Positions 19,492-64,000 of a stretch of DNA of 64,000 bases are shown piece by piece. The DNA is from Zobellia barbeyronii (GTDB lineage: Bacteria; Bacteroidota; Bacteroidia; Flavobacteriales; Flavobacteriaceae): positions 186,001 to 250,000 of the forward strand of contig NZ_JACATN010000003.1 in NCBI RefSeq assembly GCF_018603515.1. The letters run 5' to 3'. Numbering within the stretch: position 1 is the stretch's first letter; every line of letters starts with the position of its first letter. Position numbers and translations under genes: made by a program. Under the pieces are notes generated by a model. That model did not search any database, had not been told where the DNA came from, and worked only from the letters and a program-made list of their open reading frames with translations.

Positions 19492-19593
19492 AGTGGTTTA
19501 TTGTTAGTTAAATAGTGGCCCTTTGTTGAGTTAAAAGCCTTAGGGTAAATATATTCTAGAGTTTGAGCGCATTTATCTCATATTGGTATACAT

Positions 19594-19642: not shown

Positions 19643-19804
19643 TTATACCCTATATTTAGTACATATTTTAACCCTTTACCACAGAATTACAAGCGTACAT
19701 CTCAACTGAGCTTAAAAAAATAACACATAAACATAGTTCACTTAACCAAATTGTTTATTTGAACTATACCATACTTAAAAGACCACTTTGACCAAACCGC
19801 TCTT

Positions 19805-46775: not shown

Positions 46776-47567
46776 TTAATCTTCAACTGTTATTGCCCTA
46801 TCTAAATGTGTATATCCTCCATCTACAAAAAGTAATTGTCCTGTAGTATGGCTAGATAGTTCTGACAATAGAAAAACAACCGTGTTGGCTATTTCTGCAG
46901 CTGTCGTCATACGGTTACCTAATGGAATTTTACCCGTGATGGATTTCATTTTTTTCTCAGGTTCCGAAAATGTACTGATCCACTTTTCATATAAAGGCGT
47001 GTAACATTCCGCTACTATTACGGCGTTCACCCTTATTTGGTAAGGTAAAAGTTCTACCGCCCATTCTCTTGTTAAAGCATTTCTACCTCCGTTGGAAGCT
47101 GCATAACCAGATGTTCCGCCTTGACCCGTAAAAGAAGTTTTAGAGCCAATATTTACAATGGCTCCTTTGCTCTTTTTAAGCTCAGGAAGGGCATACTGTG
47201 CCATAAGATAATAATGGACTAAACTTTTTTGAAGGGAAGCCATAAAGTCTTCGTAATTGCCATTTTCCAAACCAACACCATCATTTACGCCAGCATTGTT
47301 TACAAGACCATCAATTCTACCAAAGGTAGAGATGACGTTTTCTACGGCTGCTTTACATTGCTCAGGATCCGTTAACTCCGCAAAGGCGTAACCTACTTGG
47401 CCACCCGCTTTTTTAATCTCTTCTACCACCGCTATGATACTAGGTTTGTTTCTACCTATAATAAAAGGAATAGCTCCTTCTTTTAATAGAATCTGACTTA
47501 TACCAAGGCCTATGCCTTTTGAACCACCAGTAACGATAATGACTTTATCCTTTAAGTTTAAATCCAT
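46776..47567 (-). CDS. SDR-family L-fucose dehydrogenase (atypical active site)
   Basis: A 263-residue short-chain dehydrogenase. The cofactor loop is TGGSKGIG, NNAG is present, catalytic Ser142 (NIGSK) and Tyr155 are kept, but the invariant Lys of YxxxK is Asn159 (YAASN; codon AAC on the coding strand). The rest (GQGGTSGYAAS, LTREWAVELLPYQIRVNAV) resembles L-fucose dehydrogenases, which make L-fuconolactone. Position in the operon fits that first step. The missing Lys would impair a standard SDR mechanism, so an adapted enzyme or another role is possible. Confidence 0.75.
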   Translation of the reverse strand: MDLNLKDKVIIVTGGSKGIGLGISQILLKEGAIPFIIGRNKPSIIAVVEEIKKAGGQVGYAFAELTDPEQCKAAVENVISTFGRIDGLVNNAGVNDGVGLENGNYEDFMASLQKSLVHYYLMAQYALPELKKSKGAIVNIGSKTSFTGQGGTSGYAASNGGRNALTREWAVELLPYQIRVNAVIVAECYTPLYEKWISTFSEPEKKMKSITGKIPLGNRMTTAAEIANTVVFLLSELSSHTTGQLLFVDGGYTHLDRAITVED

Positions 47568-47582: not shown

Positions 47583-48434
47583 CTAATATGCTTTTGCCAG
47601 TTGTTTTGAACTTCCCAATCCTTCAATACCAAGCTCTACAACATCTCCTGCCTTTAAGTATTTTGGTGGATTAAAACCTAAACCAACACCAGAAGGCGTA
47701 CCTGTAGAAATAATATCTCCTGGTAATAACGTCATAAACTGACTGATGTAACTTACCACTTCTTGTATATTGAAAATAAAATCTGAAGTATTGCTATCTT
47801 GAATTTTTTCTCCATTTAACTTCAACCATAAATTAAGGTTGTTTGGATCTTTAATTTCATCTGCAGTAGCGATAAACGGTCCTAAAGGAGCAAACGTATC
47901 ACATCCTTTTCCTTTACACCATTGTCCTTCTTTCTCTATCTGAAAAGCACGTTCACTATAATCATTGTGCAAAACATAACCCGCAATATGGTCATATGCA
48001 TCTTTCTCTTCTACATAAGAAGCTTTCTTACCAATAACCACGGCAAGCTCTACTTCCCAATCCGATTTTTCACTATTCTTAGGAATGATAACGTCATCAT
48101 TAGGCCCTACAATAGCAGAAGTTGCTTTAAAAAAGAGTACTGGCTCTTTTGGAATAGCCATACCACTTTCTGCTGCATGTTTAGCATAGTTTAAGCCTAC
48201 ACATACAATTTTTGATGGGCGTACCAAAGGCGAACCTAAACGAACATCTTCCGAAACTACCGGACAGTTTCTTTCGTTTTTCTCCAACCAATCCTTCAAT
48301 TTTGCGATGCCATCGCCTCCAAAAAAATCTTCGCTGTAATCTGATATAAACTCAGAGACATCCAACCGTGTACCATTATCTAATTGCACTCCGGGTTTTT
48401 CAGCCCCTATACTTCCAAATCTTATTAATTTCAT
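47583..48434 (-). CDS. FAH-family 2,4-diketo-3-deoxy-L-fuconate hydrolase
   Basis: A 283-residue protein of the fumarylacetoacetate hydrolase superfamily. CVGLNYAKHAAE, VEL in SDWEVELAVVIG (Glu127 and Glu129 metal ligands), Asp158 in HNDYSER, and STGTPSGVG are all present. In the non-phosphorylated L-fucose route this family splits the 2,4-diketo acid into pyruvate and L-lactate, which suits the lactate dehydrogenase gene in the operon. It is cytoplasmic, 51 bases after the second dehydrogenase. Confidence 0.88.
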   Translation of the reverse strand: MKLIRFGSIGAEKPGVQLDNGTRLDVSEFISDYSEDFFGGDGIAKLKDWLEKNERNCPVVSEDVRLGSPLVRPSKIVCVGLNYAKHAAESGMAIPKEPVLFFKATSAIVGPNDDVIIPKNSEKSDWEVELAVVIGKKASYVEEKDAYDHIAGYVLHNDYSERAFQIEKEGQWCKGKGCDTFAPLGPFIATADEIKDPNNLNLWLKLNGEKIQDSNTSDFIFNIQEVVSYISQFMTLLPGDIISTGTPSGVGLGFNPPKYLKAGDVVELGIEGLGSSKQLAKAY

Positions 48435-48485: not shown

Positions 48486-49262
48486 CTATGAACCGTTTAA
48501 GGTAACAAATCCTCCATCTATTGGAAAATTAGTTCCCGTAATAAACGAAGCTTCTTCTGAGCAAAGGTATACCGCTAAATTTGCGACTTCTTCCGGTTTA
48601 CCCATTCTGCCAATAGGTTGAGTTTTGGATAATTTTTCAAAAATTTCTTTTTCTCTACCTGGGTAATTCTTATTAATAAACCCATCAACAAAAGGCGTGT
48701 GCACTCTTCCTGGGGAAATACAATTACATCTAATGCCATCTTTTAAATAATCTTTGGCCACGGAATAGGTCATGGTCAATACGGCACCCTTTGTCATGGA
48801 ATAGGCGAATCTATCATTTATTCCTACCGATGATGCAATGGAAGCCATGTTTATAATAACGCCACCAGTCTCTTTCAATGAGCCAATACTAGCATGCATG
48901 CAGTTATAAACCCCCTTGATATTTACATCATACAAGCGGTCTAAATCTTCTTCTTGACAAACTTCCAAATTGCCTATATGAGCAATACCGGCGTTATTGA
49001 TTAGAATATCGATTGGATTTTTTGCCGTTATGGCTTCAAATGCAGCAGTAACTTCTTTCCGCACAGCTACATTGCAACTATAAGTGAAGGCAGTACCTCC
49101 CATGTTTTCAATAAGTGATGCAGTCTCTTTTGCATTTTCTTCGTTCATTTCTAGAATGTGAAGAATTGCACCTTGCTCGGCAAGCGCTATACAAATAGCT
49201 TTGCCTATACCACTGCCACCACCAGTAACCACAGCTGATTTATTCTTTAAACTAAATTTCAT
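48486..49262 (-). CDS. SDR-family 2-keto-3-deoxy-L-fuconate dehydrogenase
   Basis: A 258-residue short-chain dehydrogenase with a complete site: TGGGSGIG, NNAGIAH, Ser141 (NMASIAS), Tyr154 and Lys158 (YSMTK). ISPGRVHTPFVDGF and FPIDGGFVTLNGS resemble the 2-keto-3-deoxy-L-fuconate dehydrogenase branch that oxidises C4. It starts seven bases after the fuconate dehydratase stop and precedes the diketo acid hydrolase, the right order for the pathway. Confidence 0.88.
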   Translation of the reverse strand: MKFSLKNKSAVVTGGGSGIGKAICIALAEQGAILHILEMNEENAKETASLIENMGGTAFTYSCNVAVRKEVTAAFEAITAKNPIDILINNAGIAHIGNLEVCQEEDLDRLYDVNIKGVYNCMHASIGSLKETGGVIINMASIASSVGINDRFAYSMTKGAVLTMTYSVAKDYLKDGIRCNCISPGRVHTPFVDGFINKNYPGREKEIFEKLSKTQPIGRMGKPEEVANLAVYLCSEEASFITGTNFPIDGGFVTLNGS

Positions 49263-49269: not shown

Positions 49270-50595
49270 TTATAATGTTGTGCTTAATTCTTTTTCCCAA
49301 TAACTCCCGTTTGGAAAACTGTATTCTGCTAACGATTCGGGTTTCATTGTTATACTATACCCAGCCATACTTGGTGGCATATACGCGCCATTTTTAATGA
49401 CCACAGGGTCAAAGAAATGTTCGTGCAAATGGTCTACGTATTCAATAATACGATTTTCTAAAGAACCACTTATAGCAATATAGTCGATCATTGATAAATG
49501 CTGTACATATTCACAAAGTCCAACGCCACCTGCATGCGGACAAACAGGTATATTAAATTTTGCAGCCATGAATAAAATGGCCAATATTTCATTGACACCT
49601 CCTACCCTACAACTATCAATCTGACATATTTCTATAGCATTGGCTTGCATTAATTGCTTGAACATTACCCTGTTCTGACAATGCTCTCCTGTTGCTACTT
49701 TAATAGGTGCTACCGCTTTTGCTATCTTGGCATGTCCTAAAATATCATCCGGACTTGTGGGTTCTTCGATCCAATACGGATTGAATTTTTTCAATTCGGC
49801 CATATTCTCAATAGCTTCATCCACATCCCATTTCTGATTGGCATCCATCATCAATCGAAGGTCTTCACCAATTTCTTCGCGAATAATTGCAGCACGGCGC
49901 ATATCATCTTGCAAATCCGAACCTACCTTAATTTTCATATGGTCAAAACCAGCTTCTTTTGCTTCTCTACATAGCCTACGCATCTTATCATCTGAATACC
50001 CCAACCAACCGGCCGAAGTAGTATAGGCAGGATAACCGTCTTGCTTTAATTTAGCTATACGTTCTTGTTTTGAACCTTCTTTTTCCTTTAGCATGGCCAA
50101 TGCTTCTTGCGGAGTGATAGCATCGGTTATATAGGTGAAATCAACACAACGAACCAACTCTTCTGGAGTCATATCGGCCAGCAACTTCCATAGTGGTTTC
50201 CCTTCGGCTTTGGCGTATAAATCCCAGACGGCATTTACCATAGCACCAGTAGCTAAATGAATAACTCCTTTTTCAGGACCTAACCATCTTAGCTGGCTAT
50301 CACCAGTAATCATTTTCCAGAAAGCACCCATATCTGCGGTAAAGCTTTCCAATGTTTTCCCAACCACTAATGGAGCTAAGGATTGGATTGCGGCGGCACA
50401 TAATTCATTGCCCCGACCAATGGTAAAAGTTAATCCATGACCTTCTAGTCCGTTGTCGGAATCGGTCTTTAATATTACATACGCCGCAGAATAATCCGGG
50501 TCTGGATTCATTGCATCCGAACCATCTAAGGACTTACTCGTTGGAAAACGGACATCTTTAATTTCGACACCCGTAATTGTTATTTTTTTTGACAT
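49270..50595 (-). CDS. L-fuconate dehydratase (enolase superfamily)
   Basis: A 441-residue enolase-superfamily enzyme converting L-fuconate to 2-keto-3-deoxy-L-fuconate. K221-I-K223, metal ligands Asp251, Glu277 and Glu304, and His354 (CPHAGGVGLCEYVQHLSM) are all present. They are offset by a constant three residues from the Lys220/His351 reported for the Xanthomonas enzyme, which supports the exact function. It is first in the catabolic operon, about 13 bases after a predicted transcription start. Confidence 0.94.
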   Translation of the reverse strand: MSKKITITGVEIKDVRFPTSKSLDGSDAMNPDPDYSAAYVILKTDSDNGLEGHGLTFTIGRGNELCAAAIQSLAPLVVGKTLESFTADMGAFWKMITGDSQLRWLGPEKGVIHLATGAMVNAVWDLYAKAEGKPLWKLLADMTPEELVRCVDFTYITDAITPQEALAMLKEKEGSKQERIAKLKQDGYPAYTTSAGWLGYSDDKMRRLCREAKEAGFDHMKIKVGSDLQDDMRRAAIIREEIGEDLRLMMDANQKWDVDEAIENMAELKKFNPYWIEEPTSPDDILGHAKIAKAVAPIKVATGEHCQNRVMFKQLMQANAIEICQIDSCRVGGVNEILAILFMAAKFNIPVCPHAGGVGLCEYVQHLSMIDYIAISGSLENRIIEYVDHLHEHFFDPVVIKNGAYMPPSMAGYSITMKPESLAEYSFPNGSYWEKELSTTL

Positions 50596-50614
50596 AAATT
50601 CTTTATTAACAGTA

Positions 50615-50682
50615 CAAACTTAAAACTTCAACTTTTTCAAAACCACCAGATATTGTACCCAAAGTGATACTTTTTTTGCTTA
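50615..50682 (-). promoter_or_regulatory. Promoter and operator of the fucose catabolic operon
   Basis: On the minus strand, TAAGTTTG (50615-50622) fits the Bacteroidetes -7 consensus TAnnTTTG. A 20-base spacer and the block at 50643-50682 follow upstream; read on the plus strand the block is CCACCA-N7-TACC-N6-GATACTTTTTTTGC-N-TA. The same parts with identical spacing precede the PUL2 SusC gene (59125-59192). Confidence 0.75.
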
Positions 50683-50804
50683 TTAGAGTGTTTTATCTCC
50701 AATTAAGATATCAAATAATCAAAAAAATACATTTCGCAAACTTTCATAAAAGCTTTAAAATCATTCGTTTCTTTCCTCTGGCTCATTATTTCTTTAAACC
50801 TTAA

Positions 50805-52319
50805 CTACCTAACTATTTCTCTAAGTTCTTTTAATAACTTCAATGATTCACCTGACACAGATCCATCTTCATACATTTCTAAATTAATAGAAAGAGGGTA
50901 TCTATTATGTTGCGCATTCTTCACATATTTACTCAACTCTTCTACCGAGTATTTAGACTTTTTTATTGGCGTATTAAAGTCGATATGTCCCCATCTTTCT
51001 TCTAAAGGAAAACACGTATGCGCCATGAGGCCTTTATGTTTTCCATCAACAAACTTACCTTCATCTAAATTTTCAAACCGCTGTAACCCTTCTCCTGAAT
51101 AGAAATCTTGATACTCGGTTACTCTTGGTAAAATCCAAGAATTATAGGTCAATACTCTTTGTTCATTCCCCCTTCTAGCAGCTTCGCTCATTTCTTTAAA
51201 TGACGCACTCAATACTCCTTCTTGTGTGCCATCAAAACGGGAATCATAGTAGCGCTGTCCGCCATCAAAAAACCACCCGTTTAATTTGTCTCCATATCTA
51301 TTACCGACCTCAGCAATAATCTCATTTACATTCTTATACAATCTGGTTTTATCTGCTTCATAACCTCCTGCCACATTTAACCATGCAGGATCTTTAGAAT
51401 GATAACAATCGTAACCGTAGTGGTAATAAAAAATTAACTTAATGCCTTTTGCGTGGAGTTGATCGGCCATTTCCCCTAGCAAATCTCGCTTCGTAGTACG
51501 GCCTTCAATCAGTTTATCCAATGATGTTATAGGAGCTGAAATATATTGCTGTCCCCAAGTTATAGACCAGATAACATACGCCGCTCCAGTTTCCTCAACC
51601 ATATTGGCAAATTGTTGAACATCAAAATCGTTTATTTTTTGCTCCCAATCTTTAATTTTCATTCCTTCCTTAGGAGTTGCCCTATTCGTCCATTGAAACA
51701 TAAGTCCATATCCGGCATCCTTAAACCAATCCAGGTCTTGCCGTACAGATAAGGCTTCATCTATTATCTGTTCTTCAATGGTTGGTCTTGTCAGCTCTAA
51801 TGCTGAAACTTTAATAATTTCATCTGACTGAATTTTTAACTCAATTTTATTGCTTCCTTTTTTAAGCTGAATATTGCCTAAATTCAGTCTACTCCAATCT
51901 TCTGATTGTACTTTTACATTTCTTTTTTCACCGTTACATAGTAGTTCTATGTTGGTATTTTTACCTAATATTTCTGCAGTAACCGTGTAATTTCCAGATG
52001 AAGGCACATTTACTTCCCAAGACAAAGAATGTTTACCAAAAGCAGTAGATTCCACCCATAAAAACATAAAATTTAGCACCTTAGATTCTATGTTTTCACT
52101 TTTTAATGCGCTCCCCGCGGAAAGCACATTAATAGTTTCTAAATCTATAGATATAGGAGAAAGCCCACTATTCGTAATTTCATCTTCTGTTTCTGCATAA
52201 GGGTCTGGACTGTCCTGTGCAACCAAAGCTAAATTTGCTAAAAGAAGAAAAAACAAGCACCATATTTTTTTGATACTCCTAGAGCCAAGTTTGCACTTGT
52301 AGTACCTGATTTTATTCAT
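50805..52319 (-). CDS. Divergent GH29-like alpha-L-fucosidase with N-terminal CBM-like domain
   Basis: A 504-residue secreted protein. Residues 60-178 form a beta-sandwich of carbohydrate-binding type (HSLSWEVNVPSSGNYTVTAE, GSNKIELKI). The barrel begins DLDWFKDAGYGLMFQWTNRA, matching the GH29 start, and NGWFFDGGQRYYD puts a nucleophile-like Asp at about 352. The GH29 motif KHHDGF is replaced by a segment around WSITWGQQYISAP, so substrate contacts must differ. It may cleave sulfated or methylated fucosides or be a new family. It is last in the SusC operon, upstream of the catabolic promoter. Confidence 0.65.
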   Translation of the reverse strand: MNKIRYYKCKLGSRSIKKIWCLFFLLLANLALVAQDSPDPYAETEDEITNSGLSPISIDLETINVLSAGSALKSENIESKVLNFMFLWVESTAFGKHSLSWEVNVPSSGNYTVTAEILGKNTNIELLCNGEKRNVKVQSEDWSRLNLGNIQLKKGSNKIELKIQSDEIIKVSALELTRPTIEEQIIDEALSVRQDLDWFKDAGYGLMFQWTNRATPKEGMKIKDWEQKINDFDVQQFANMVEETGAAYVIWSITWGQQYISAPITSLDKLIEGRTTKRDLLGEMADQLHAKGIKLIFYYHYGYDCYHSKDPAWLNVAGGYEADKTRLYKNVNEIIAEVGNRYGDKLNGWFFDGGQRYYDSRFDGTQEGVLSASFKEMSEAARRGNEQRVLTYNSWILPRVTEYQDFYSGEGLQRFENLDEGKFVDGKHKGLMAHTCFPLEERWGHIDFNTPIKKSKYSVEELSKYVKNAQHNRYPLSINLEMYEDGSVSGESLKLLKELREIVR

Positions 52320-52342
52320 TTTAGTTACGTTATATTTCTTTA

Positions 52343-52376
52343 AAAGCCCTTAGATTTTAGAAATTCTAAGGGCTTT
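52343..52376 (-). terminator. Intercistronic stem-loop between sulfatase and GH29-like genes
   Basis: A perfect 12 bp stem AAAGCCCTTAGA / TCTAAGGGCTTT with a ten-base loop, 24 bases before the GH29-like ATG. TTTTAAAG on the minus strand after the stem makes partial termination possible. Confidence 0.6.
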
Positions 52377-52420
52377 ACTTTTGATATTAGAATTGAAGTA
52401 CTAGAAAATATTTCAATTAA

Positions 52421-54262
52421 TTACAACTTTTCTATATACACATAATACGCAGGGTGTATTCTTTTGTCTTTATCTATCAGTTGAGCTTCCATATTATATT
52501 TTCCTGCAGAAATATTAGCCGTAAACGACACTTCTTTTTGGTCTTTCTCAATTTTTGCCGTCCCTTCTAAGTCAGCCACAAAGATATAAGCACTCTCAAA
52601 ATCGGATTTTGTACTGGCTGGCATGGCACGATCTAGTTCTATTGTTTTTTTCTCCGCAGAAAAAGTTTCGTTTATACCAAGTCCACTTTCACGTGGAAAA
52701 CGGCGTAGACTTATTTTATACTCACCATCTTCAACAAATTGAATTTTCCAGTTCCCTGTAGCTTGCACCGCATTCGCAGCTCCATACTGGTGCCACATTG
52801 TGGTAAACTTACCTGTTAACATGTCATGTGCGGAAATACGACTGGGGTTCTCTTGTGGCGTACCCACTTTAATATAAGCGTATCGTTCATTAACACCTTC
52901 GTCCATTATCGATTGCCACCAATTCTCATAACCCATGGCTAATTTTTCAGCAACCTCAGGATGCTGATCAAAAACATTGATAGTCTGGCTGCGGTCTTGG
53001 TTCATATCGTATAGCTCAGTACCATTTACAAGGCGCCAGTTGTCATCCATAACAGCATACTTTCTGTATTTCACCAAATTTTGCAGACGCTGCGTATCCA
53101 TATACAATGTTCTGTTAGGCCAATCTTTGGCAGTATCATATAGTAAAGGTTTTAAACTAGTCCCATCTAATGGCTTAACCGGATTATAGTCAAAACCCAA
53201 CAGGTCTACAAAAGTTGGTAACAAATCGTAATGTGCTACTAATTTATCAATATCCTTACCACCGGTAAGCTCACCGTTGGGCCATCTAATCATGAAAGGT
53301 ACGCGATGCCCACCTTCATATTCACTACCCTTACCACCTTTAAGACCCGCATCATAAACTTCGTTTCCGCCTGCTGTACCATTATCTGTTGTAAAAATAA
53401 GAATGGTATTATCGGCAATATCAAGTTCATCAAGCTTATCCTCTAACAGTTTAAAGTTATCATCTATATTAGTAATCATTCCATAAAACCGTTTGAACTG
53501 GTCAGGAACACCATCAACTTCTTTATACATATCCAAATACTCTTTTGGGACATTTAATGGGCCATGTGGAGCATTAGTAGCTATATAACAGAAAAAAGGA
53601 CTGTCTTTATTCGTCTCTATGAAATCCAAGGCTTCTGAAAAGAACACATCGGTGCAGTATCCTTCGTATTTTTCAGTTTTACCATTGTGCCAATAGGTAT
53701 CATCAAAATAATCATTGTTCCAATAATCAGGGCCTTGAGTTATACCACCACCTCCATGGCGAACAACTTCGTGAAAACCTCTGTCTTCCGGACGGTACGG
53801 ATAATTATCTCCCAAGTGCCATTTACCGAACATACCATTGGTATACCCATTTTGAGCAAAAATCTGAGGAAGGATTACCTCATCTTCAAAAAGTAAAGAA
53901 CGTCCTGCAATCGTATGAAATACATTTAACCGGTTCGTATGCCGACCGGTCATTATTGCCCCTCTACTCGGGGCGCAAGTGGTAGACACGTGATAATTAC
54001 TCAACCGAACTGCATCCGTATAAAACTTATCGATATTCGGCGTTTTTACGTACGGGTTTCCGTAGCATCCCAAGTCACCCATACCTTGGTCATCCGTGAT
54101 TACGACAATTACATTCGGTTTTTCCTTGGATTTACTTTGTGCCTGCATAACTGCGGATGACGTACAAGCCAAAATCATGAAAACCGAAAGGCTCTTCGCT
54201 ACAAAGCCTTGCTTATTTTGGTTGCCGAGCTTTCTATTACTTTTAAATAAATTATGTTTCAT
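52421..54262 (-). CDS. S1-type sulfatase with extra C-terminal domain (PUL2)
   Basis: A 613-residue sulfatase, over 100 residues longer than its neighbours. An unusually long N-terminus precedes a hydrophobic signal (about 22-42). TDDQGMGDLG supplies metal ligands, and CAPSR starts at Cys96. FTTDNGTAGG and GGHRVPFMIRWP follow. Residues from about 490 form a beta-rich appendage (GNWKIQFVEDGEYKISLRRF) that may bind glycan. It should desulfate fucoidan-type chains in the periplasm. Confidence 0.88.
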   Translation of the reverse strand: MKHNLFKSNRKLGNQNKQGFVAKSLSVFMILACTSSAVMQAQSKSKEKPNVIVVITDDQGMGDLGCYGNPYVKTPNIDKFYTDAVRLSNYHVSTTCAPSRGAIMTGRHTNRLNVFHTIAGRSLLFEDEVILPQIFAQNGYTNGMFGKWHLGDNYPYRPEDRGFHEVVRHGGGGITQGPDYWNNDYFDDTYWHNGKTEKYEGYCTDVFFSEALDFIETNKDSPFFCYIATNAPHGPLNVPKEYLDMYKEVDGVPDQFKRFYGMITNIDDNFKLLEDKLDELDIADNTILIFTTDNGTAGGNEVYDAGLKGGKGSEYEGGHRVPFMIRWPNGELTGGKDIDKLVAHYDLLPTFVDLLGFDYNPVKPLDGTSLKPLLYDTAKDWPNRTLYMDTQRLQNLVKYRKYAVMDDNWRLVNGTELYDMNQDRSQTINVFDQHPEVAEKLAMGYENWWQSIMDEGVNERYAYIKVGTPQENPSRISAHDMLTGKFTTMWHQYGAANAVQATGNWKIQFVEDGEYKISLRRFPRESGLGINETFSAEKKTIELDRAMPASTKSDFESAYIFVADLEGTAKIEKDQKEVSFTANISAGKYNMEAQLIDKDKRIHPAYYVYIEKL

Positions 54263-54300
54263 TTTTATTCCCAGAGTTTAGTATTGTTTGTATTGAAAAT

Positions 54301-54330
54301 ATGACGATTTTTAAAAAGCTATCGCGTCAT
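54301..54330 (-). terminator. Weak stem-loop after SusD
   Basis: ATGACG (54301-54306) pairs with CGTCAT (54325-54330), which overlaps the SusD stop codon. The stem is short and lacks a clear T run, so its role is uncertain. Confidence 0.3.
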
Positions 54331-55844
54331 TAATATCCTGCATTCTGAACAAGATTCTCATTGTTCCGAAGCTCATCTGTAGGTATAGGAAACAATAGTT
54401 CACGCTCCGTTAATGTTGGGCCGTAAGCAAATGAATGACCTACAAAATCTTCAAAAGTTCCCGTGGTAACATTAAATCCTTTTTTAAGCCTAACCATATC
54501 AAACCAAGTGACATTCTCATAACTAAGCTCGTGCCATTTTTCCTTCCAAATAGCTTCACGAAACTGGTCTTTGCTTAGCCCGGCCAAATCAGGAAGCTCT
54601 GCTCTAGTTCTAATTTCGTTTACAGCGTCGTATGCTGCTGCTGTAGGGCCTGACAACTCATTTGACGCCTCAGCATAAATTAGTAAGACTTCCGCGTAGC
54701 GTATCAAATCCCAATTTAAATCACTGCTTGCCGTATCAAGATTAGCAACGATATCAAAATGTTTATAGAGGAAGTATCCACCTAGAACAATGGTCTCATC
54801 CCTATCAAATTTTGAGGTATAGGTAGTATAGTAAAATTCCTTTTCAGCTACCCTTTTATCTCCTTCTTCATATGAGTTTATAAAATTCTCATTGGCATAA
54901 ATAGCACCTGTCTGTTCTGAATAAGCAGAAATATTCATGTTATAAGGAATCACTAAAGGTTGCCAATCAGAAGGGTCTACAAAAGCTTCATATTGAACCA
55001 TAAAAATGTTCTCGCCAGCATTATTTTGTTCAGGGTCGTGTAAATCTGCATACGTTGGGAACAAACTATATTCCGCCGAGTCTATAACTTCTTTGGCTTT
55101 GTCCGCTGCTTTTTGATAGTACTCGCTACCCAATTGTAGAGGGTTACCAGCCATAGTCAAATACACGCTAGATAGCAATGATTTGACAGCTCCCAAGGTT
55201 ACTTTTCCCGTACCATCATTAAACGGAAGACCTGATGCCTCTGCATTAGTCAAATCTTCTACGATTACCGTATAAATATTCTCTACCGTTTCTTGGGACG
55301 AATACAAGTTTTCCGAACTCAAATCAATAGGGTCAGTAATTAAAGGAACACTACCAAAAATCCTAACAAGGTTATAATAGTAATAAGCTCTTAAAAAGCG
55401 AGCTTCTCCCAATAGTTGATTTTTTTGGCCTTCATCCATAGTAATATCAGGAATATTTGCAATAGCTAAGTTGGCATTGGCGATACCTTTATAGCTACTA
55501 TCCCAGTATTCCTTGCCATATGCATTATCTGACGTATTGGTCAAGTTTCGAATGATATTGCTATTATCCGCCTGACCTAAATCACTATCTGCTAAACCTG
55601 TAGCAAATTCCAACATTAGCCAAGGGCTACCGCCATATGACCCTCCGCGTACTTCCCTTAAATTGGAATAGATAGAATATACAGCAGATTCTGCATGCTC
55701 CGCAGTTTTAAAATAACTGTCTGCGGTAATATTAGATGGATCGGTTTCTTCAAGAAAATCAGAACAGCCCACTCCTATGATTAGCAAGAATCCCATCAAG
55801 ACTACTTGAATTCTGGTTTTAATTATATTTTTCATGTTTGTCAT
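54330..55844 (-). CDS. susD: SusD-like glycan-binding lipoprotein (PUL2)
   Basis: A 504-residue SusD/RagB-family lipoprotein. The lipobox IGVGC (Cys about 27) is followed by SDFLEETDPSN. LGEARFLRAYYYYNLVRIFGSVPL and IRYAEVLLIYAEASNEL are family hallmarks, and WKEKWHELSYENVTWFDMVRL is near the end. Met4 may be the true start. It lies seven bases downstream of its SusC and should bind fucose-containing glycan on the surface. Symbol is by family only. Confidence 0.92.
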   Translation of the reverse strand: MTNMKNIIKTRIQVVLMGFLLIIGVGCSDFLEETDPSNITADSYFKTAEHAESAVYSIYSNLREVRGGSYGGSPWLMLEFATGLADSDLGQADNSNIIRNLTNTSDNAYGKEYWDSSYKGIANANLAIANIPDITMDEGQKNQLLGEARFLRAYYYYNLVRIFGSVPLITDPIDLSSENLYSSQETVENIYTVIVEDLTNAEASGLPFNDGTGKVTLGAVKSLLSSVYLTMAGNPLQLGSEYYQKAADKAKEVIDSAEYSLFPTYADLHDPEQNNAGENIFMVQYEAFVDPSDWQPLVIPYNMNISAYSEQTGAIYANENFINSYEEGDKRVAEKEFYYTTYTSKFDRDETIVLGGYFLYKHFDIVANLDTASSDLNWDLIRYAEVLLIYAEASNELSGPTAAAYDAVNEIRTRAELPDLAGLSKDQFREAIWKEKWHELSYENVTWFDMVRLKKGFNVTTGTFEDFVGHSFAYGPTLTERELLFPIPTDELRNNENLVQNAGY

Positions 55845-55851
55845 TTTTTGT

Positions 55852-58800
55852 TTAGAAAGTTGCGTTCAACCCAATCATAAATACTCTAGGCTTTGGATAT
55901 TGATCAAAGTTTACCTCTCCTTGTCCAAAAGTGTTATCACTAGTTTGTACTTCTGGATCGTAACCTTCATATTTTGTGCTTACAAAGAAATTTTGAGCCG
56001 ATGTATATATCTTCAACCTACTTAACTTAAATTTCTCTGCGATATCCGGTGAGAAATTATATCCCAATAGTAAGTTTCTACCTCTAATGAATGACCCATC
56101 TTGAATCATGTGAGAAGTATCTAAATTGTCATAACCGGCAGATACGGGTCTCCACTGTGCAATTTCTGTATCTTGGTTCTCAGGAGTCCAACCATCCAAT
56201 ACCGTGGCAAGGCTATTTGCTATACCCTGTCTATTTTCTTGTGGACGTGTAGTGATGTACATGATATCATTACCGTACTGAAACTGTAAATCCACCAATA
56301 ATTCAAAATTCTTGTAGCGGAAGGTGTTGATCAAACTTCCATAACCATCGGGAATACCCTTACCAATAATAGTTCTATCGGCCTGATTGATAACCCCATC
56401 ATCATTCCTATCCTCTATTTTTACATCACCTGGTAATCTAAAATATTTAGCAGCTTCATCAGCTTCGTCTGTTCCCCATGTGCCCTGATTAACTAGGCCA
56501 AAGAATGAACCTACAGCCTCTCCTTCACGAATGATAGTCCGACTAGAAAAAATATCACTTCCTCCAGAAAGCGCAACTACCTCATTTTTATTCATGGCAA
56601 TGTTGAAATCCGTATCCCAAGAAAAATTATCGGTTGCAATATTCCTAGTACTCAAGGAAAACTCAATTCCTTTATTTTCCATACTCCCTATATTTCGGAA
56701 TACAGAAGCGTATCCACTACTGGTAGGTACAGGCGAGTTCAGTAACATATCTTCTGTTAACTTACGGTAGAGATCAACCTCAAAGGAAATTCTTCCATCA
56801 AACAAGCCAACCTCAATTCCGGCATCAACTTGGTTTGTTTTTTCCCATTTTAAATCAGGATTAGCCAAACGGTCTATACCAATACCATTTACAACCGAAT
56901 TATTAACCACATAGGCATAGTTTCCTAAACCAGGTAATGCTCCGTATGCAGGTATTTCTGAGTTACCAGTAACACCATAACTAGCTCTTAATTTAAGATT
57001 GGATATCGTTTTAGATTCTTTCAAAAAATTCTCTTCGGAAACTTTCCAAGCTAAAGCTGCTGAAGGAAAGAAGGCGTATCTATTGGTATCTCCAAATTTG
57101 GATGATCCATCTACACGACCTGTAACCGTCAATAGGTATTTATTTTGAAGACCATAATTGATCCGTCCGAAATAAGAATTTAACCCATAAGCAAAAGCAC
57201 TTGACGTTGGATTGCCAACCACTGAACCCGCTCCTAAATTATCGAAGCTAAAAAAGTCATCCGAGAAATTTTCCGCTCGGGCACTAAATGCCGTGTTATT
57301 TATATGTTGCCATGATATCCCCAATAAACCAGTTATAGAATGGGTATCAGCTATCTCCTTATTATAGGTCAGGTAATTTTCAAATTGCCATGAAGTATAT
57401 TCATTAGCTTCTCTTTCTGCATAACCGTTTGTATTCGTTCCAATAAAACTAAGTTCACGGCCCGCATATTCATCGGTTTTTTGCTCTACGCTATTTACTC
57501 CTATGGAAGTTCTAAAATCCAGTCCTTTAGCCAAAGTAATATTGGCGAATATGTTTCCTAATATGGTATTGGTGCGCAAGAATTTTTTGTACTCTTCCCC
57601 TACCCTAACTGGGTTTGGCCCGCCTTCCATTCCTGGATAATCTGCATTACTCGCCCAGCTTCCGTCAGGATATTTAACTGGAACAATTGGAATATTCTCA
57701 ATCATGTTCCTTCCTACCCACGAAGCGTGAATAACTCTTTCTTTTTGGTTGTTATAACTAAGACTACCGCCTACTTTCATCCAATCTCTAATATTGGAAT
57801 CAAAAACAAAACGACCAGAATATCTCTTTAACCATGAGTCTTTCATGATACCCTCTTCGTCCATATAACCAAGAAACGCACCATAACTACCTTTCTCCGT
57901 TCCTCCTGTAAATGACAGTTGGTGGTTCTGTGTGAAGGCCGCTCGGGTCACCTCATCTTGCCAGTCCGTATCATAAAGCGGATTACCATTGGCATCAAAA
58001 AGTTTTGGGTCATTTCTTTTTAAAGCCGGGTCCGTATACTTGCCATTGGCAAAACCCACGGCATCATATTTTTCTGCATTCTGATAGGCTACCTCTTCTA
58101 TCATTAAAAATTGCTCTGAGTTCAGTACGTCTACTTTTCTAGAAAGGTTTCCTATACTATAGTAGCTATCATAACTAATTTTTCCTCCTGATTTACTTCC
58201 TCTTTTTGTAGAAACCAAAATAACACCATTAGCACCTCTAGAACCATATATTGCCGTTGCCGAAGCATCTTTTAAAACTTCTATTGAAGCAATATCATTG
58301 GGGTTGATATAATCTATTGGGGAACTGTTATTGCCCAATCCCGATGAGACCAATATAATTCCATCTACTACATACAATGGATCATTAGAAAGACTAACCG
58401 AAGAATTTCCTCTAATTCTAATATTAGATTTCCCTCCCGGTCTACCTGAATTAATAGATACGCTTACACCGGGCATTTTACCAGATAAGGATTGGGTAAG
58501 GGAAGCGGCCGGACGCTCTTGCAACTCAGCTGCAGAGACAGAACCAACGGCACCTGTTAGGTCACTTTTCTTTTGGCTACCATAACCAATTACAACCACC
58601 TCATCTAAGCTTGCGGCATCCTCCTCCATAGTTACATCTATACTACTAGATGCGCCAACCGTAAGCGACTGAGTTTTCATACCAATGTATGAAAAGACCA
58701 ATACATCTCCCGAGCTTGCCGCTATGGTATAGTTTCCATCAAAATCTGTTTGTGTTCCTGTTGTACTGCCTTCTATAAGTACATTCACGCCCGCAAGAGG

Positions 58801-58995
58801 TATTCCTACATTATCCAAAACAGCACCGGTAATTTGCTGTTGAACATCTTCAAAATCAAGTCCTGAGGTTATGGGAGCGCTGCTCGCCTGAACTTCTGAA
58901 ATTAATGCTGGCAAAAGGAATGCACAAAGGCAAACCTTTAGAACCTCCTTTGGGATAATGCCAAAGGGATAAATTTTGGTTGTCCGTTTTTTCAT
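55852..58995 (-). CDS. susC: SusC-like TonB-dependent transporter (PUL2)
   Basis: A 1047-residue outer-membrane transporter with a long signal region (about 1-38), a carboxypeptidase-like domain (about 52-125; GAVLDNVGIPLAGVNVLIEG) and a plug with SIEVLKDASATAIYGSRGANG. The barrel ends VFMIGLNATF with a terminal Phe. It imports the PUL2 oligosaccharide together with SusD. A 411-base gap upstream holds its promoter block and, farther up, the terminator of the sulfatase operon. Confidence 0.93.
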   Translation of the reverse strand: MKKRTTKIYPFGIIPKEVLKVCLCAFLLPALISEVQASSAPITSGLDFEDVQQQITGAVLDNVGIPLAGVNVLIEGSTTGTQTDFDGNYTIAASSGDVLVFSYIGMKTQSLTVGASSSIDVTMEEDAASLDEVVVIGYGSQKKSDLTGAVGSVSAAELQERPAASLTQSLSGKMPGVSVSINSGRPGGKSNIRIRGNSSVSLSNDPLYVVDGIILVSSGLGNNSSPIDYINPNDIASIEVLKDASATAIYGSRGANGVILVSTKRGSKSGGKISYDSYYSIGNLSRKVDVLNSEQFLMIEEVAYQNAEKYDAVGFANGKYTDPALKRNDPKLFDANGNPLYDTDWQDEVTRAAFTQNHQLSFTGGTEKGSYGAFLGYMDEEGIMKDSWLKRYSGRFVFDSNIRDWMKVGGSLSYNNQKERVIHASWVGRNMIENIPIVPVKYPDGSWASNADYPGMEGGPNPVRVGEEYKKFLRTNTILGNIFANITLAKGLDFRTSIGVNSVEQKTDEYAGRELSFIGTNTNGYAEREANEYTSWQFENYLTYNKEIADTHSITGLLGISWQHINNTAFSARAENFSDDFFSFDNLGAGSVVGNPTSSAFAYGLNSYFGRINYGLQNKYLLTVTGRVDGSSKFGDTNRYAFFPSAALAWKVSEENFLKESKTISNLKLRASYGVTGNSEIPAYGALPGLGNYAYVVNNSVVNGIGIDRLANPDLKWEKTNQVDAGIEVGLFDGRISFEVDLYRKLTEDMLLNSPVPTSSGYASVFRNIGSMENKGIEFSLSTRNIATDNFSWDTDFNIAMNKNEVVALSGGSDIFSSRTIIREGEAVGSFFGLVNQGTWGTDEADEAAKYFRLPGDVKIEDRNDDGVINQADRTIIGKGIPDGYGSLINTFRYKNFELLVDLQFQYGNDIMYITTRPQENRQGIANSLATVLDGWTPENQDTEIAQWRPVSAGYDNLDTSHMIQDGSFIRGRNLLLGYNFSPDIAEKFKLSRLKIYTSAQNFFVSTKYEGYDPEVQTSDNTFGQGEVNFDQYPKPRVFMIGLNATF

Positions 58996-59124
58996 TTTCT
59001 AATAATTAAGTTAGTACGATGGGTTGGCGACTGCGAATTAAGTATATCGCAAAAATGGCGTCTCAAAAAAATAATATAGCCTCTTTAAAAACTATATATT
59101 ATCATTTTGTTAAAATGACATAGC

Positions 59125-59192
59125 CAAAACTAAGAATGTAAAAAAACTCTCACCACCAAAAAAAATACCAGATTCGATACTTTTTTTGCATA
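59125..59192 (-). promoter_or_regulatory. Promoter and operator of the PUL2 SusC operon
   Basis: On the minus strand, TAGTTTTG (59125-59132) fits TAnnTTTG. After a 20-base spacer comes the block 59153-59192, read on the plus strand as CCACCA-N7-TACC-N6-GATACTTTTTTTGC-N-TA, gaplessly aligned with the fuconate dehydratase promoter. The leader to the SusC ATG would be about 120 bases. Confidence 0.75.
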
Positions 59193-59406: not shown

Positions 59407-60819
59407 TTATTCATTTGTGGGTTCTATTGAATTTCTTGCTTCTGAAAATGAATTAGAAGGTGGACTTTTTGGTAGTGATTTTTCGAATGTTTTGAACTTA
59501 TCCATTAGTTCTCTCTTCTTTTCTGGATTTTCAGCGGACACATCTTTCTGCTCTGCCCAGTCCGAAGAAATATCATATAGTTCCGCTCTTCCTAATTCTT
59601 CATTTGCCAACAACTTCCAATTCCCTTCCTGTACACCTGCACTTGGCCAAAAATCCGGTCGGTCATTCGGAAAACGCCAATCCCAAAAAATCGGTTTTTG
59701 TCGTTCAAAAGGTTTTCCCATAATAGCTGGTATTATACTTACCCCATCTGGTTCATAATTTTCAGGATAGGTTGTATTCGCTAATTCTAAAAATGTAGGT
59801 AGTAAATCTACGGTAGCCAATTCTGTAGTTTTATCAACCACACCAGAAGGAGTTTTGCCTGGCCAACGCACTAAAAACGGTATACGTACACCACCAGCAA
59901 ACAAAGATCGTTTTCGTCCCTTTAAACCGCCTGTTTCACCCACAGAGTAATAGGTTCCCTTTCCGGGCCCTGTAGAATTGTCTTCTATTATTTTTTTATC
60001 ACCTGTAATTTCCGGTCCGTTATCCGATGAGAAAACTACCAATGTATTTTCATCTAAACCTAAACTTTTCAAAGCTTCAAATAGCTCACCAATACGAGCA
60101 TCATACTCCGCTATCACCGCTGCGTAAACCTGTTGTTGCTCCTTTAAATGAGCAAATTGCTGCATGTACTTTTCCTTAGGATAATGCGGGGTATGCGTGG
60201 CGTGAATCCAAGCATTTACAAAAAATGGTTTGTTCTTGTTCCGTTTTACAAAATCGATTGTTTTATACAACGTTGAGTCTGCTTGCATTTGGTGTAGGTC
60301 ACTCGGCAAATTAAATGCGCCGTACTCATCATAACCATATTCTAGTGGACTAGGTGCATCTTGAACATGGGTATTGGAAAGATGCCATTTGCCGAAATGA
60401 GCAGTGGCATAACCTGATTCTTTTAGCATTTTTGGAAGTAAAGGAGCTTCAGGGTTTAACCAATCTGGCATACCTCTTTTCATATGTGATTCCACGGATG
60501 CAAAGTGACCGTGCACACTTTGTCGCGCCGGAAATTGTCCCGTCATTACTGCAACCCTACTAGGTGAACAAACAGGGTTCACCACAGAGAAGTTTTGAAA
60601 ATCGATGCCCTCAGCGGCCATTTTATCAAGGTTTGGGGTTTCACAAAACGTACTACCATGGATACCTAAGTCACCATACCCCCAATCATCGGCAAAAATG
60701 AATATGATGTTAGGCCGGGTATCCTGTTCAACCGCTATCTCCTTTTTAGCTTCTTGTTTTTCTCCACACGAAAGAATCATCAAAGTGCTAAAAAGCAAGA
60801 GTTTTATTCCTATTTTCAT
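59407..60819 (-). CDS. S1-type sulfatase, lipoprotein (PUL2)
   Basis: A 470-residue sulfatase with the lipobox ILSC (Cys about 18). NIIFIFADDWGYGD supplies metal ligands, CSPSR starts at Cys84, and VVFSSDNGPE and GGVRIPFLVRWPG follow. It lies 50 bases downstream of the next sulfatase, and a bidirectional terminator follows it, so it ends the operon that begins beyond the window edge with GH29. Sulfate position on fucose is unknown. Confidence 0.88.
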   Translation of the reverse strand: MKIGIKLLLFSTLMILSCGEKQEAKKEIAVEQDTRPNIIFIFADDWGYGDLGIHGSTFCETPNLDKMAAEGIDFQNFSVVNPVCSPSRVAVMTGQFPARQSVHGHFASVESHMKRGMPDWLNPEAPLLPKMLKESGYATAHFGKWHLSNTHVQDAPSPLEYGYDEYGAFNLPSDLHQMQADSTLYKTIDFVKRNKNKPFFVNAWIHATHTPHYPKEKYMQQFAHLKEQQQVYAAVIAEYDARIGELFEALKSLGLDENTLVVFSSDNGPEITGDKKIIEDNSTGPGKGTYYSVGETGGLKGRKRSLFAGGVRIPFLVRWPGKTPSGVVDKTTELATVDLLPTFLELANTTYPENYEPDGVSIIPAIMGKPFERQKPIFWDWRFPNDRPDFWPSAGVQEGNWKLLANEELGRAELYDISSDWAEQKDVSAENPEKKRELMDKFKTFEKSLPKSPPSNSFSEARNSIEPTNE

Positions 60820-60869: not shown

Positions 60870-62465
60870 TTATGACTTAGTCCAATCTGGCATGTCCCAA
60901 CCTTCTTTTACATAAGATTGTGGTGTACCGGGTGTAGTTCTCCCCTCTTCAATAATTTTGGTGATTTTCTGAGTAAGCTTTTTTACTACTTCCGGATTAT
61001 TAAAATAAAGATTTGTTGTTTCTCCTGGGTCTTCTTCCATATTGTAAAGCTCATATATGGCTTCACCTTCTTTTGGCTCAATAATCTTAGGCTCCAAAGA
61101 ACCTCCAGAACCGCGAAACATATTTAGTTTCCATTTCCCTTCTCTAATTGCAAAATTTCCCGAAACGGAATGATGAATTACAGCTCCTCTTACCGCTTTA
61201 TCATATCGCTCCCCTTTTAGAATGGGTAATAAACTATAACTATCCTCACCCGCATTATCAGGAAGTTTTACTCCAATAATATCAGCAATGGTAGCCAAGT
61301 AGTCGGTCTGGCAAACGGGCACATCTGACTTCTCCCCTGCTTGTATTCCGTTAGGCCAACGCATTAGAAAAGGAACCCGATGTCCACCTTCATAGATATC
61401 TCGTTTACCTCCTTTAAAGTTGAGGCTACTATAGTGTCCATATTTTTCTCGTTGATAAACGTAGTTGGTCTCCGCGCCATTATCCGATGAAAAAATTACC
61501 AGGGTATTGTCTTCAATTCCATTTGCCTTTAATGCCTCTAGAACATGTCCGATTCTATGATCGGTTTCTTCCATAAAATCGCCATAATTTCCGCAGTTAC
61601 TCTTCCCTTGAAAATCAGGATGCGTACAATGCGGTAAATGCGGACTGGTCAATGGTAAATACAAAAAGAACGGTTTACCCGCTTTGGCCTCCGCTGCAGA
61701 TTCGCTAATATAATCCACCGCTTTATCGGCAAATGTCTTTAGAACTAATTCATCGTTAAATGATGGTGCCACTTCTACCCATCCATTGGTGCCTTCTTTA
61801 CGCTCACTTATGTAGGGTGGTGTCATTCTATACCCTTTCGGGTTAATACTATCACTAAATGCACGTGGTCTTTTATCCGCTTTCTTTTTAGTCCATAATA
61901 CAGGAGGGTCTAACACCTTATCATTTTCTAAATACGTTAAAATACCGTAATTCATAGAAGCTGGAATACCAAAATAATAATCAAATCCTTTCTCTATTGG
62001 CCCATCTGTAAAAGGCTTTGACCAGTCACGTTCTTTGCCCAAACTCCCTTCAAATTCCATTTGAAGATGCCACTTTCCTATCATGGCAGTTTTATAGCCG
62101 TTTTCTTGAAGTAAAGAAGCAATGGTCATCCTATCCTTTTCTATTAAACAAGGCCCATCAGCTCTTAAAACTCCTTCTTTTAAAGAGGTTCTCCAACTGT
62201 ATCGCCCTGTTAGCAAGGAGTATCTAGATGGGGAACATACCGCATCACTGCTATGCCCATCCGTAAAAATGATGCCCTCATTGGCCAATTTATCCATATT
62301 TGGCGTTTTGAATTTAGCATCGGGATTAAGTGCCCCTACATCGCCATACCCTTGGTCATCTGTGTAAATAACAATGATATTTGGTTTTTGGATGTTCTGG
62401 GCGCCCAGAGTTATTGAAAACAATAAAAGTAAAATTCTTAATGCTTTATATTTCGGTAAATTCAT
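60870..62465 (-). CDS. S1-type sulfatase (PUL2)
   Basis: A 531-residue secreted sulfatase with a signal peptide (about 1-22) and no lipobox. NIIVIYTDDQGYGD supplies metal ligands, CSPSR starts at Cys77, and VIFSSDNGAE and GGHRVPFLMRWP follow. The length and the insertion at about 165-245 fit larger S1 types acting on polysaccharides. It lies between GH29 and the lipoprotein sulfatase in one operon; periplasmic fucose-sulfate removal is inferred from context. Confidence 0.88.
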   Translation of the reverse strand: MNLPKYKALRILLLLFSITLGAQNIQKPNIIVIYTDDQGYGDVGALNPDAKFKTPNMDKLANEGIIFTDGHSSDAVCSPSRYSLLTGRYSWRTSLKEGVLRADGPCLIEKDRMTIASLLQENGYKTAMIGKWHLQMEFEGSLGKERDWSKPFTDGPIEKGFDYYFGIPASMNYGILTYLENDKVLDPPVLWTKKKADKRPRAFSDSINPKGYRMTPPYISERKEGTNGWVEVAPSFNDELVLKTFADKAVDYISESAAEAKAGKPFFLYLPLTSPHLPHCTHPDFQGKSNCGNYGDFMEETDHRIGHVLEALKANGIEDNTLVIFSSDNGAETNYVYQREKYGHYSSLNFKGGKRDIYEGGHRVPFLMRWPNGIQAGEKSDVPVCQTDYLATIADIIGVKLPDNAGEDSYSLLPILKGERYDKAVRGAVIHHSVSGNFAIREGKWKLNMFRGSGGSLEPKIIEPKEGEAIYELYNMEEDPGETTNLYFNNPEVVKKLTQKITKIIEEGRTTPGTPQSYVKEGWDMPDWTKS

Positions 62466-62555: not shown

Positions 62556-64000
62556 TTACTCCATACTTCCTTCTGGTGTCAATCGTATTTCTTTTAGACT
62601 TGCATTGCTCTTTTTTCCATCTACCAAAGAAACTGTTATGGTATGCTTTCCGGGCTTATTAAACTTTATAAGTCCCATTTCATAATAACTATATACCTCT
62701 GATGAATTTTGCTGATTCTGAACTACAACTCCCTCATCTGAAGTTATATTCCAAACCAAACGACCTTCACCTGCATAGTTTAATTCCGTTTGATAATAAC
62801 CCGGATCTTTCACCTCTATTTCCCAAGTCACTTTACTTCCTTCTTTCCAATCTTGTGCTTGCTCAATATGTTTCCATTCCCCAAATTTTTCCATCCATCT
62901 TTTCTCCGCAATGGCGCAACCCTCGGCCGTAGCAAAGTCAACTGGCAGCACCGTTGAAAAAACTGGGTCTATACTATTGGATACAGCCACCTCTGGGCTA
63001 CCCTCTATTTCTAGCTCTATAACCGATATTAATCTTTCGTTTCGTCTTGCTGGTAGTGAAATAGCAACCCAACCATCTTCAGTTGTGGTTTCTAATTTTT
63101 GTCCTTTTCCATCCACTAATAAATCAGCAGACTTAATCGTATTCTTTAACCCTGGAAGCCACAGTTTACCATCTAATGGCCATTGGTAAACACAAAGGTT
63201 CAATTTGCCATCAGCCGCTACGGTGGCATCACCCCATGGCAATGCATGACCCCATGGCGAAGCTCCTGTTTTATATACCACCTGAGGATACTTGCTAATC
63301 CATTCTCCTGATGCTCTTAGCGATTCTTGAGCCTCCGCAGGAATTGTTCCGTCTGGTGCAGGCCCCACATTTAGCATATACGTCCCTCCACGGGCCACTG
63401 TAGAAATAATACTTTTTAAAATCCGTTTTGGGCTTTTCCAATTTTGGTCGTACCAAGCGTAGCCCCAAGAATCGTTGGTAACATCTACAGTTTCCCATAA
63501 CCCACCAATATTTTTTATGGGAATGTTCATATCCCCTAAAGATTTATAATCTCCTAAACCATGACCGGCCCTTCCTGAAATCATAGCATTAGGTTGATGT
63601 TTGCGAACTACTTCTACCAATTCTTCCACATATTTTTTTTCCATATTGCCAGGCGTATCGAACCAGACCATGGCGATATCACCATATTGGGTTACAATTT
63701 CTTTAACCTGCGGAAGACACTTTTCTTTGAAGTAATAATCAAAGCCTACCTCTTTCCCTTTCTCGTTCACCTTTGGTCCTCCATTGCCTCCTGGAAATGT
63801 CCAATCTTGATTGTGTGAATAATAAAAACCAAAACCAAGGCCTAATTCTTTACATGCCTTTGACAGTTCCTTCATAGGGTCTCTGGCAAAAGGCGTGGCC
63901 TTAACTATATTAAAATCGTTGCTTTTAGAATTGTACATGGCAAAACCATCATGGTGCTTACTGGTAACCACTATATATTTCATTCCGGCATCTTTAGCGA
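62556..64000 (-). CDS. GH29 alpha-L-fucosidase, N-terminus beyond window edge
   Basis: About 480 residues are visible. The frame stays open to base 64000 through AKDAG before MKYIVVTSKHHDGFAMY, so the real start lies outside. KHHDGF and MVWFDTPGNM (nucleophile Asp) identify GH29. A beta-sandwich (GTYMLNVGPAPDGTIPAEAQ onwards) follows, then an extra C-terminal domain of about 110 residues (DWKEGSKVTWEIEVKDPGYY) of carbohydrate-binding type. It should release L-fucose from the oligosaccharide for FucP. It leads the sulfatase operon visible here. Confidence 0.92.
   Translation of the reverse strand, partial: AKDAGMKYIVVTSKHHDGFAMYNSKSNDFNIVKATPFARDPMKELSKACKELGLGFGFYYSHNQDWTFPGGNGGPKVNEKGKEVGFDYYFKEKCLPQVKEIVTQYGDIAMVWFDTPGNMEKKYVEELVEVVRKHQPNAMISGRAGHGLGDYKSLGDMNIPIKNIGGLWETVDVTNDSWGYAWYDQNWKSPKRILKSIISTVARGGTYMLNVGPAPDGTIPAEAQESLRASGEWISKYPQVVYKTGASPWGHALPWGDATVAADGKLNLCVYQWPLDGKLWLPGLKNTIKSADLLVDGKGQKLETTTEDGWVAISLPARRNERLISVIELEIEGSPEVAVSNSIDPVFSTVLPVDFATAEGCAIAEKRWMEKFGEWKHIEQAQDWKEGSKVTWEIEVKDPGYYQTELNYAGEGRLVWNITSDEGVVVQNQQNSSEVYSYYEMGLIKFNKPGKHTITVSLVDGKKSNASLKEIRLTPEGSME

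Follow-up and report, generated by a model that had tools for sequence, protein, structure and literature searches.

How a marine flavobacterium keeps the uptake of fucose-containing polysaccharides in step with the breakdown of fucose itself is the question raised by a 64,000-nucleotide stretch of the Zobellia barbeyronii genome (assembly GCF_018603515.1, contig NZ_JACATN010000003.1, positions 186,001 to 250,000 of the forward strand), which is called the window here and whose first letter is position 1 of the coordinates given below. These polysaccharides account for 4-13% of brown algal dry weight (PMC9296495), and their sensing by flavobacteria is little known. In the window, two minus-strand promoters 8.5 kb apart, one in front of a fucose catabolic operon and the other in front of a SusC/SusD operon of a polysaccharide utilization locus (PUL), had been predicted from the letters alone to share one block and one fucose-responsive regulator coupling uptake and catabolism. 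We report that these blocks are very probably the operators of an AraC-type activator, P0001, which would drive both fucose catabolism and fucose-polysaccharide uptake, probably upon sensing L-fucose or a pathway intermediate. As judged by comparison, not by experiment, the idea of one shared regulator is strongly supported, and the site tracks the gene of this AraC-family protein.

Read on the sequence, the same parts are indeed present at both promoters, without gaps and at the exact distances that had been claimed. Operator A, a 37-nt core on the minus strand (50643..50679) upstream of the fucose catabolic operon, reads GCAAAAAAAGTATC-N6-GGTA-N7-TGGTGG on that strand; on the plus strand its sub-blocks are CCACCA (50643-50648), TACC (50656-50659) and GATACTTTTTTTGC (50666-50679). 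Operator B (59153..59189, minus strand), in front of the SusC/SusD operon, is likewise a 37-nt core, with CCACCA at 59153-59158, TACC at 59166-59169 and GATACTTTTTTTGC at 59176-59189. The minus-strand -7 promoter elements, TAAGTTTG (50615..50622) for operator A and TAGTTTTG (59125..59132) for operator B, both follow their operators at 20 nt, with the FucD start codon 19 nt and the SusC start codon 129 nt further downstream; on the plus strand both read CAAAnnTA, that is TAnnTTTG on the minus strand, and exactly 20 bases separate them from CCACCA. With up to 3 mismatches, CCACCA-N7-TACC-N6-GATACTTTTTTTGC matched the window twice and 100 shuffles not once.

When the whole genome was scanned (G000; 4,977,540 bases in 37 contigs), the full pattern at up to 3 mismatches gave 3 matches and the reversed control 0, and all three sites fall within 15.4 kb. 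The third operator (C31:251963-251999, equal to L026:2963-2999) is found 2 kb beyond the end of the window, next to the gene of an AraC-family regulator, and precedes an esterase-like gene followed by a glycoside hydrolase family 29 (GH29) gene and two sulfatase genes. When the pattern was relaxed and extended to the -7 element, it recovered the three operators at 0-1 mismatches together with 3 other sites at 3 mismatches, the limit, as against 1 match in the control. The short block TACC-N6-GATACTTTTTTTGC alone was discarded as uninformative at 3 mismatches (22 matches in the genome and 22 in the reversed control); this block is distinctive solely at 0-1 mismatches and in combination with the CCACCA part.

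The regulator gene and the third operator both lie outside the window on which the original prediction was made. P0001, the 289-residue AraC-family protein encoded there (L026:3015-3884), lies just beyond the window, adjoining the third operator and on the same strand. Its C-terminal part carries a double helix-turn-helix (HTH) of the HTH_18 type (PF12833, 8.3e-21; PF00165, 3.5e-11), and a cupin-like N-terminal sensor is indicated by a Cupin_2 match of 21.1 bits, under the cut-off of 27.2. The AlphaFold2 model, built on a 47-sequence alignment, has a mean pLDDT of 87 and a pTM of 0.62 with a strand-rich N-terminus, and in Foldseek it resembled ToxT, Rns and CuxR as well as the sensor domains of RhaR and AraC (E 7.5e-6 to 3.5e-4); whole-length template modelling (TM) scores were low, about 0.3-0.4, and the likeness is claimed at the domain level only. 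Residues H31, H33, E37 and H71 are invariant across the 47 relatives and look like a cupin metal site. The domain scan of P0001 listed no GntR match, the only HTH being of the AraC type, and no histidine kinase or receiver domain was among its matches, which were confined to the HTH and the weak cupin. Among named organisms, records of the window genome itself possibly excepted, its closest relative is that of Pseudozobellia thermophila (82%). Within the window, the hybrid two-component protein at 19805-23923 was the only HTH protein among the open reading frames (ORFs) scanned, which were a part of the total; it was set aside as a candidate regulator because the operator pattern has no further match in the window.

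Bacteroidota promoters typically combine TAnnTTTG with a -33 TTTG box about 19 bases away. At this usual spacing TTTG is absent from both window promoters, and in the SusC promoter it occurs inside the operator, 24 bases ahead of TAnnTTTG. The proximal edge of the operator, 20 nt before TAnnTTTG, falls at about the position of the -33 box. Because the operator abuts the -33 region and no TTTG stands at the usual spacing, it seems that P0001, bound to the operator adjoining this region, would substitute for -33 recognition in recruiting RNA polymerase. The original prediction had left the choice between an activator and a repressor replacing a weak -33 box; the position favours the former, and activation by P0001 is the likeliest mode, as inferred from where the operator lies. 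Accumulation of fucose or a pathway intermediate would then lead P0001 to switch on three operons: firstly the catabolic one, FucD-SDR-FAH-SDR-FucP-LldD, secondly SusC/SusD-sulfatase-GH29, and thirdly esterase-GH29-sulfatases. The choice of L-fucose as inducer is one that we infer from gene content.

Conservation within the genus was assessed in 9 genomes, the window genome and 8 relatives. A 35-nt pattern was present in 9/9 of them in 23 copies, as against 8 matches in the reversed control, and TAnnTTT[GA] stood at the same distance in all 23 copies, ending in G in 14 and in A in 9. Nine copies, one in each genome, precede FucD, 6 precede SusC, 7 lie beside the AraC gene before an esterase, GH29 or sulfatase gene, and 1 precedes a sulfatase gene (G001). 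In G007 and G008, the 20 kb stretch has no SusC/SusD or GH29 genes between AraC and FucD, and its single site lies in that gap. Since these two genomes keep one site and no PUL genes there, it seems that the regulator-FucD gap has either gained or lost PUL genes together with their own sites.

Beyond the genus, we scored sites with a matrix trained on 20 distinct genus sites, which undercounts sites that diverge from these and necessarily recognises the genus sites themselves. In the 20 kb regions around P0001 orthologues (n = 20, 53-82% identity), FucD adjoins the AraC gene in 16/20, and the AraC-FucD gap holds the site in 14/16 regions of other genera; a matrix limited to the conserved columns added a site in L091. 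We then considered 109 regulator loci, stretches of up to about 20 kb in which some genomes occur twice, and reduced them to 100 by the removal of identical regulator genes. The site occurs somewhere in the stretch in 90 of the 100 and within 500 nt of the regulator gene in 79. With respect to that gene it is placed downstream in 61 loci, divergently in 36 and both ways in 18, and it points at the gene in 0/100, therefore giving no sign of autoregulation via a nearby site. In a core-only scan of 94 stretches (92 loci, L026 and the window), TAnnTTT lay at offset 20 for 66/90 distinct sites and at any other offset for no more than 3; in 80 of these loci, sites of at least 14 bits numbered 89, as against 0 in mononucleotide shuffles. 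Downstream of the 104 distinct full-length sites, the gene that comes first is FucD in 39 cases, SusC-like in 16, one of the two short-chain dehydrogenases (SDR1/SDR2) in 7, GH29 in 5, an esterase in 3, a sulfatase in 2 and LldD in 1.

The family survey comprised 397 genomes, with a close regulator defined as a P0001 match of E 1e-80 or better and the pattern allowed up to 2 mismatches. The pattern was found in 67/397 genomes (10/397 for the reversed control) and in 50/237 genera sampled, and the close regulator in 74/397 genomes. Both were present in 54 genomes, the regulator only in 20, the pattern only in 13 and neither in 310 (Fisher p 3e-37, uncorrected for relatedness). Recurrence of the block upstream of orthologous operons, a test set beforehand, was borne out by the FucD genes, 47 of which were found in the 397 genomes and 45 examined (G169 C7 and G088 were left out): the site lies within 420 nt upstream of 38/45, compared with 80/1000 control ORFs, true targets included. 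In the best 80 loci from named genomes, at least 9 of which belong to genomes also in the other set, the site accompanies 36/37 regulators of at least 47% identity and 7/43 of at most 43%.

Several observations weigh against our interpretation. Twenty-nine of the 104 sites precede genes outside the query set and 2 precede no ORF. Eight of these 29 genes were scanned and encode a UxaA-like dehydratase, a zinc alcohol dehydrogenase, a cysteine-rich (Lut-type) protein, a GH95 enzyme, two extracytoplasmic function (ECF) sigma factors, a 3-keto-disaccharide hydrolase and a metallo-beta-lactamase-fold protein. Ten of the 100 regulator loci have no site in the stretch examined; 20/74 genomes with a close regulator lack the pattern, and 13/323 without one possess it. 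Moreover, 7/45 FucD genes have no site, and among them those of G182, G335, G386 and G395 do have a close AraC gene (those of G044, G115 and G296 come with no regulator match at E 1e-60); FucD in G087 and G295 has a weaker site and only distant regulators, 36-38% identical and about 11 kb off. The FucD promoter of the window has a TTTG 15 bases ahead of TAnnTTTG, possibly a badly spaced -33 box. In Z. galactanivorans, Laminaria digitata induced PUL34/35, which are described as likely fucose-polysaccharide PULs, and a fucose-polysaccharide extract of Ascophyllum nodosum did not (PMC9296495); these PULs likely correspond to those of the window, and this response is unexplained if P0001 is the fucose regulator of Zobellia.

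Another point of this kind concerns repeats in the site, whose consensus is GCAAAAAAAGTATC-N7-GT-N9-GGTRG, 20 bases and TAnnTTTG. The direct repeat expected of AraC sites, at offset 21, is weak (z 1.6, p 0.07), and one inverted-repeat register reaches z 3.2 (p 0.001, about 40 registers tried); a direct repeat at offset 12 scores z 2.6 (p 0.007, 22 offsets tried). TACC-N6-GATA had been proposed as an imperfect dyad, which we could not clearly support: the A of GGTA is unconserved in the wider set, other features are better conserved than the dyad, and no repeat, inverted or direct, is clear-cut once multiple testing is allowed for. On the supporting side, the G/C-rich columns (1-2, 10, 14, 22, 33-34 and 37), presumed contact points, recur at about 11 bp (p 0.015 among 11 periods and 2 measures), a spacing that fits two double-HTH domains side by side on one DNA face.

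As to other explanations, P0001 may be the right protein and its signal L-fuconate, 2-keto-3-deoxy-L-fuconate or some other polymer sugar instead of L-fucose itself, which we consider rather unlikely and still the most serious alternative. The four invariant residues, with their resemblance to a cupin metal site, could suit an acid; the presence of fucose-pathway genes (SDR1, FAH, SDR2 and FucP) in 68/74 loci with FucD or UxaA fits fucose and its intermediates equally. It is improbable that the same protein mainly represses at the site and is released by fucose. A protein bound against the -33 region could block the polymerase, and operator A does have its badly spaced TTTG, but neither window promoter has one where it would usually be, and AraC-type proteins at such a position are usually activators. 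CgrA, from the same genus, also has a positive role (PMC5698469). More doubtful still is that the AraC gene only accompanies a site belonging to another factor, be it an alternative sigma factor, a Crp-like protein or the hybrid two-component regulator at 19805-23923. Hybrid two-component regulators also carry AraC-type DNA-binding domains, as stated in PMC3878776, but the site tracks one AraC clade across genera and drops off under about 45% identity, and the PUL next to the hybrid regulator has no match at up to 3 mismatches. That one window promoter is a recent copy of the other can be dismissed, since operators A and B agree at 27/37 core positions and 6/8 of the -7 box, but only at about chance level in the spacer (6/20) and in the flanks (16/60 upstream, 18/60 downstream), and the core is also conserved in other genera.

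Control by an AraC-type activator such as P0001 has a precedent in the genus. The AraC-family protein CgrA (ZGAL_3159) of Z. galactanivorans plays a positive part in carrageenan use; in that organism 3,6-anhydro-D-galactose alone induced catabolic genes together with a distant susCD pair (PMC5698469). P0001 resembles CgrA, as described there, in its family and in being encoded in a catabolic cluster, and it differs in its sugar and genes and in that an operator with fixed promoter spacing is defined here; the passages on CgrA give no operator sequence and no proof that CgrA itself mediates the susCD induction (PMC5698469). Joint control of the CgrA type may apply here, given that genes of monosaccharide catabolism and PUL genes both stand behind the shared operators. 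In Bacteroides thetaiotaomicron, FucR (BT1272) belongs to the GntR family and RhaR (BT3768) to the AraC family (PMC3878776; for RhaR also PMC3870299). In common with these, P0001 appears to be a dedicated regulator of one deoxysugar in Bacteroidota, and it shares its family with RhaR; unlike FucR it is of an unrelated family, and, judged by gene content, the catabolic route here looks non-phosphorylated and ends in lactate. Hybrid two-component systems likewise control SusC/SusD operons by an AraC-type DNA-binding domain; their periplasmic domain senses sugars, mostly oligosaccharides (PMC3878776), whereas P0001 is without kinase or receiver. P0001 has the cupin-like sensor and double HTH of Escherichia coli AraC and RhaR/RhaS, though with 9-19% identity in the Foldseek pairs for AraC and RhaR and with the TAnnTTTG promoter type. 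The E. coli proteins also act from an operator next to the core promoter. We found no AraC-type fucose regulator and no such operator in Flavobacteriaceae among the titles and abstract openings of the open-licence literature, and the passages concerned of PMC5613140 are without fucose data. The kind of regulator is known from CgrA, and the regulon of P0001 seems to be new.

The genes behind the operators all lie on the minus strand, and operon limits are predicted from strand and spacing. The catabolic operon begins with FucD (49270..50595), a fuconate dehydratase-like member of the enolase superfamily (MR_MLE_N and MR_MLE_C), for which no NCBIfam model reached its cut-off and whose substrate is suggested by context. 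Between the -7 element and the FucD start there are only 15-27 nt in 33/38 FucD promoters with a site (50595-50622 in the window); with such a short gap from TAnnTTTG, and with transcription predicted to start about 5-10 nt after it, a very short fucD mRNA leader is expected in many genera. There follow SDR1 (48486..49262), probably a fucose-pathway dehydrogenase, an FAA hydrolase family protein (FAH; 47583..48434), probably a 2,4-diketo-3-deoxy-fuconate hydrolase, SDR2 (46776..47567), whose role is presumed likewise, the L-fucose:H+ symporter FucP (45454..46773; TIGR00885, 515 bits, cut-off 280) and the FMN-dependent L-lactate dehydrogenase-like LldD (44221..45384; PF01070), for which lactate dehydrogenase models score best and stay below their cut-offs. 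The non-phosphorylated L-fucose route ends in pyruvate and L-lactate, and this gene set would fit it. Behind operator B stand the SusC-like TonB-dependent receptor (55852..58995), the SusD-like lipoprotein (54330..55844), a sulfatase (52421..54262) and a distant GH29-like alpha-L-fucosidase (50805..52319; PF01120, 36 bits, cut-off 25.2). Probably belonging to the third operator are a GH29 alpha-L-fucosidase (62556..63983, the ORF as listed in the window, its operon being predicted) and two sulfatases (60870..62465 and 59407..60819). The operator pattern has no match in a second sulfatase-rich PUL of the window (9209-23923; GH30, sulfatases and SusC/SusD), which comes with the hybrid two-component regulator, encoded divergently, and two types of control therefore stand side by side.

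Under the same regulator the enzymes appear to be exchanged. Among the 100 distinct regulator loci, 48 have FucD, 20 a UxaA-family protein, 32 neither and 0 both, by fixed identity cut-offs of our own setting and in stretches of up to about 20 kb (hypergeometric 2e-7, uncorrected for relatedness); one UxaA-family protein, of 553 aa, stands behind the site at L101:12727. As FucD and the UxaA type never occur together there (UxaA-type loci being L101, L177, L181-L184, L187, L189, L197, L198, L200, L206, L208-L211, L253, L256, L257, L264-L266, L268 and L269), this suggests that the UxaA/altronate dehydratase-family protein is an alternative L-fuconate dehydratase. Campylobacter Cj0483 is presumably UxaA-like. 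The fucose locus that contains it is described as including, in this protein, a dehydratase of unspecified kind (PMC6946681). In a similar manner LldD is found in 23 of the 100 loci, a Lut-type cysteine-rich protein in 12 and both in 0 (p 0.035), and the two are perhaps two ways to oxidise the L-lactate of the pathway; Lut-type loci are L101, L176, L184, L187, L192, L197, L202, L206, L207, L212, L249, L257 and L267.

It is conceivable, and in our judgment slightly short of an even chance, that many marine Bacteroidota gate fucose-polysaccharide uptake by a cytoplasmic, possibly metal-dependent, AraC activator sensing a monosaccharide, not by periplasmic oligosaccharide sensors, and that the operator has been kept as enzymes were swapped, UxaA for FucD and Lut for LldD. 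What this study offers for Zobellia, in which deletion genetics exist (PMC5698469), is a candidate regulator with a set of target genes and an operator of strict promoter geometry. The operator can also point to genes for fucose use that homology does not readily reveal, the UxaA-family and Lut-type replacements among them. Two sites (L089:9567-9631 and L197:9010-9074) precede ECF sigma factor genes, and the regulator may feed a sigma-factor cascade there. At the end of a further group of sites, accompanied by regulators about 50% identical to P0001, GGAAG takes the place of GGTRG (L197:9010-9074, L201:10837-10901, L204:9077-9141, L206:9420-9484, L207:9175-9239, L209:10777-10841, L210:10133-10197 and L212:9741-9805), which possibly reflects a change of DNA specificity.

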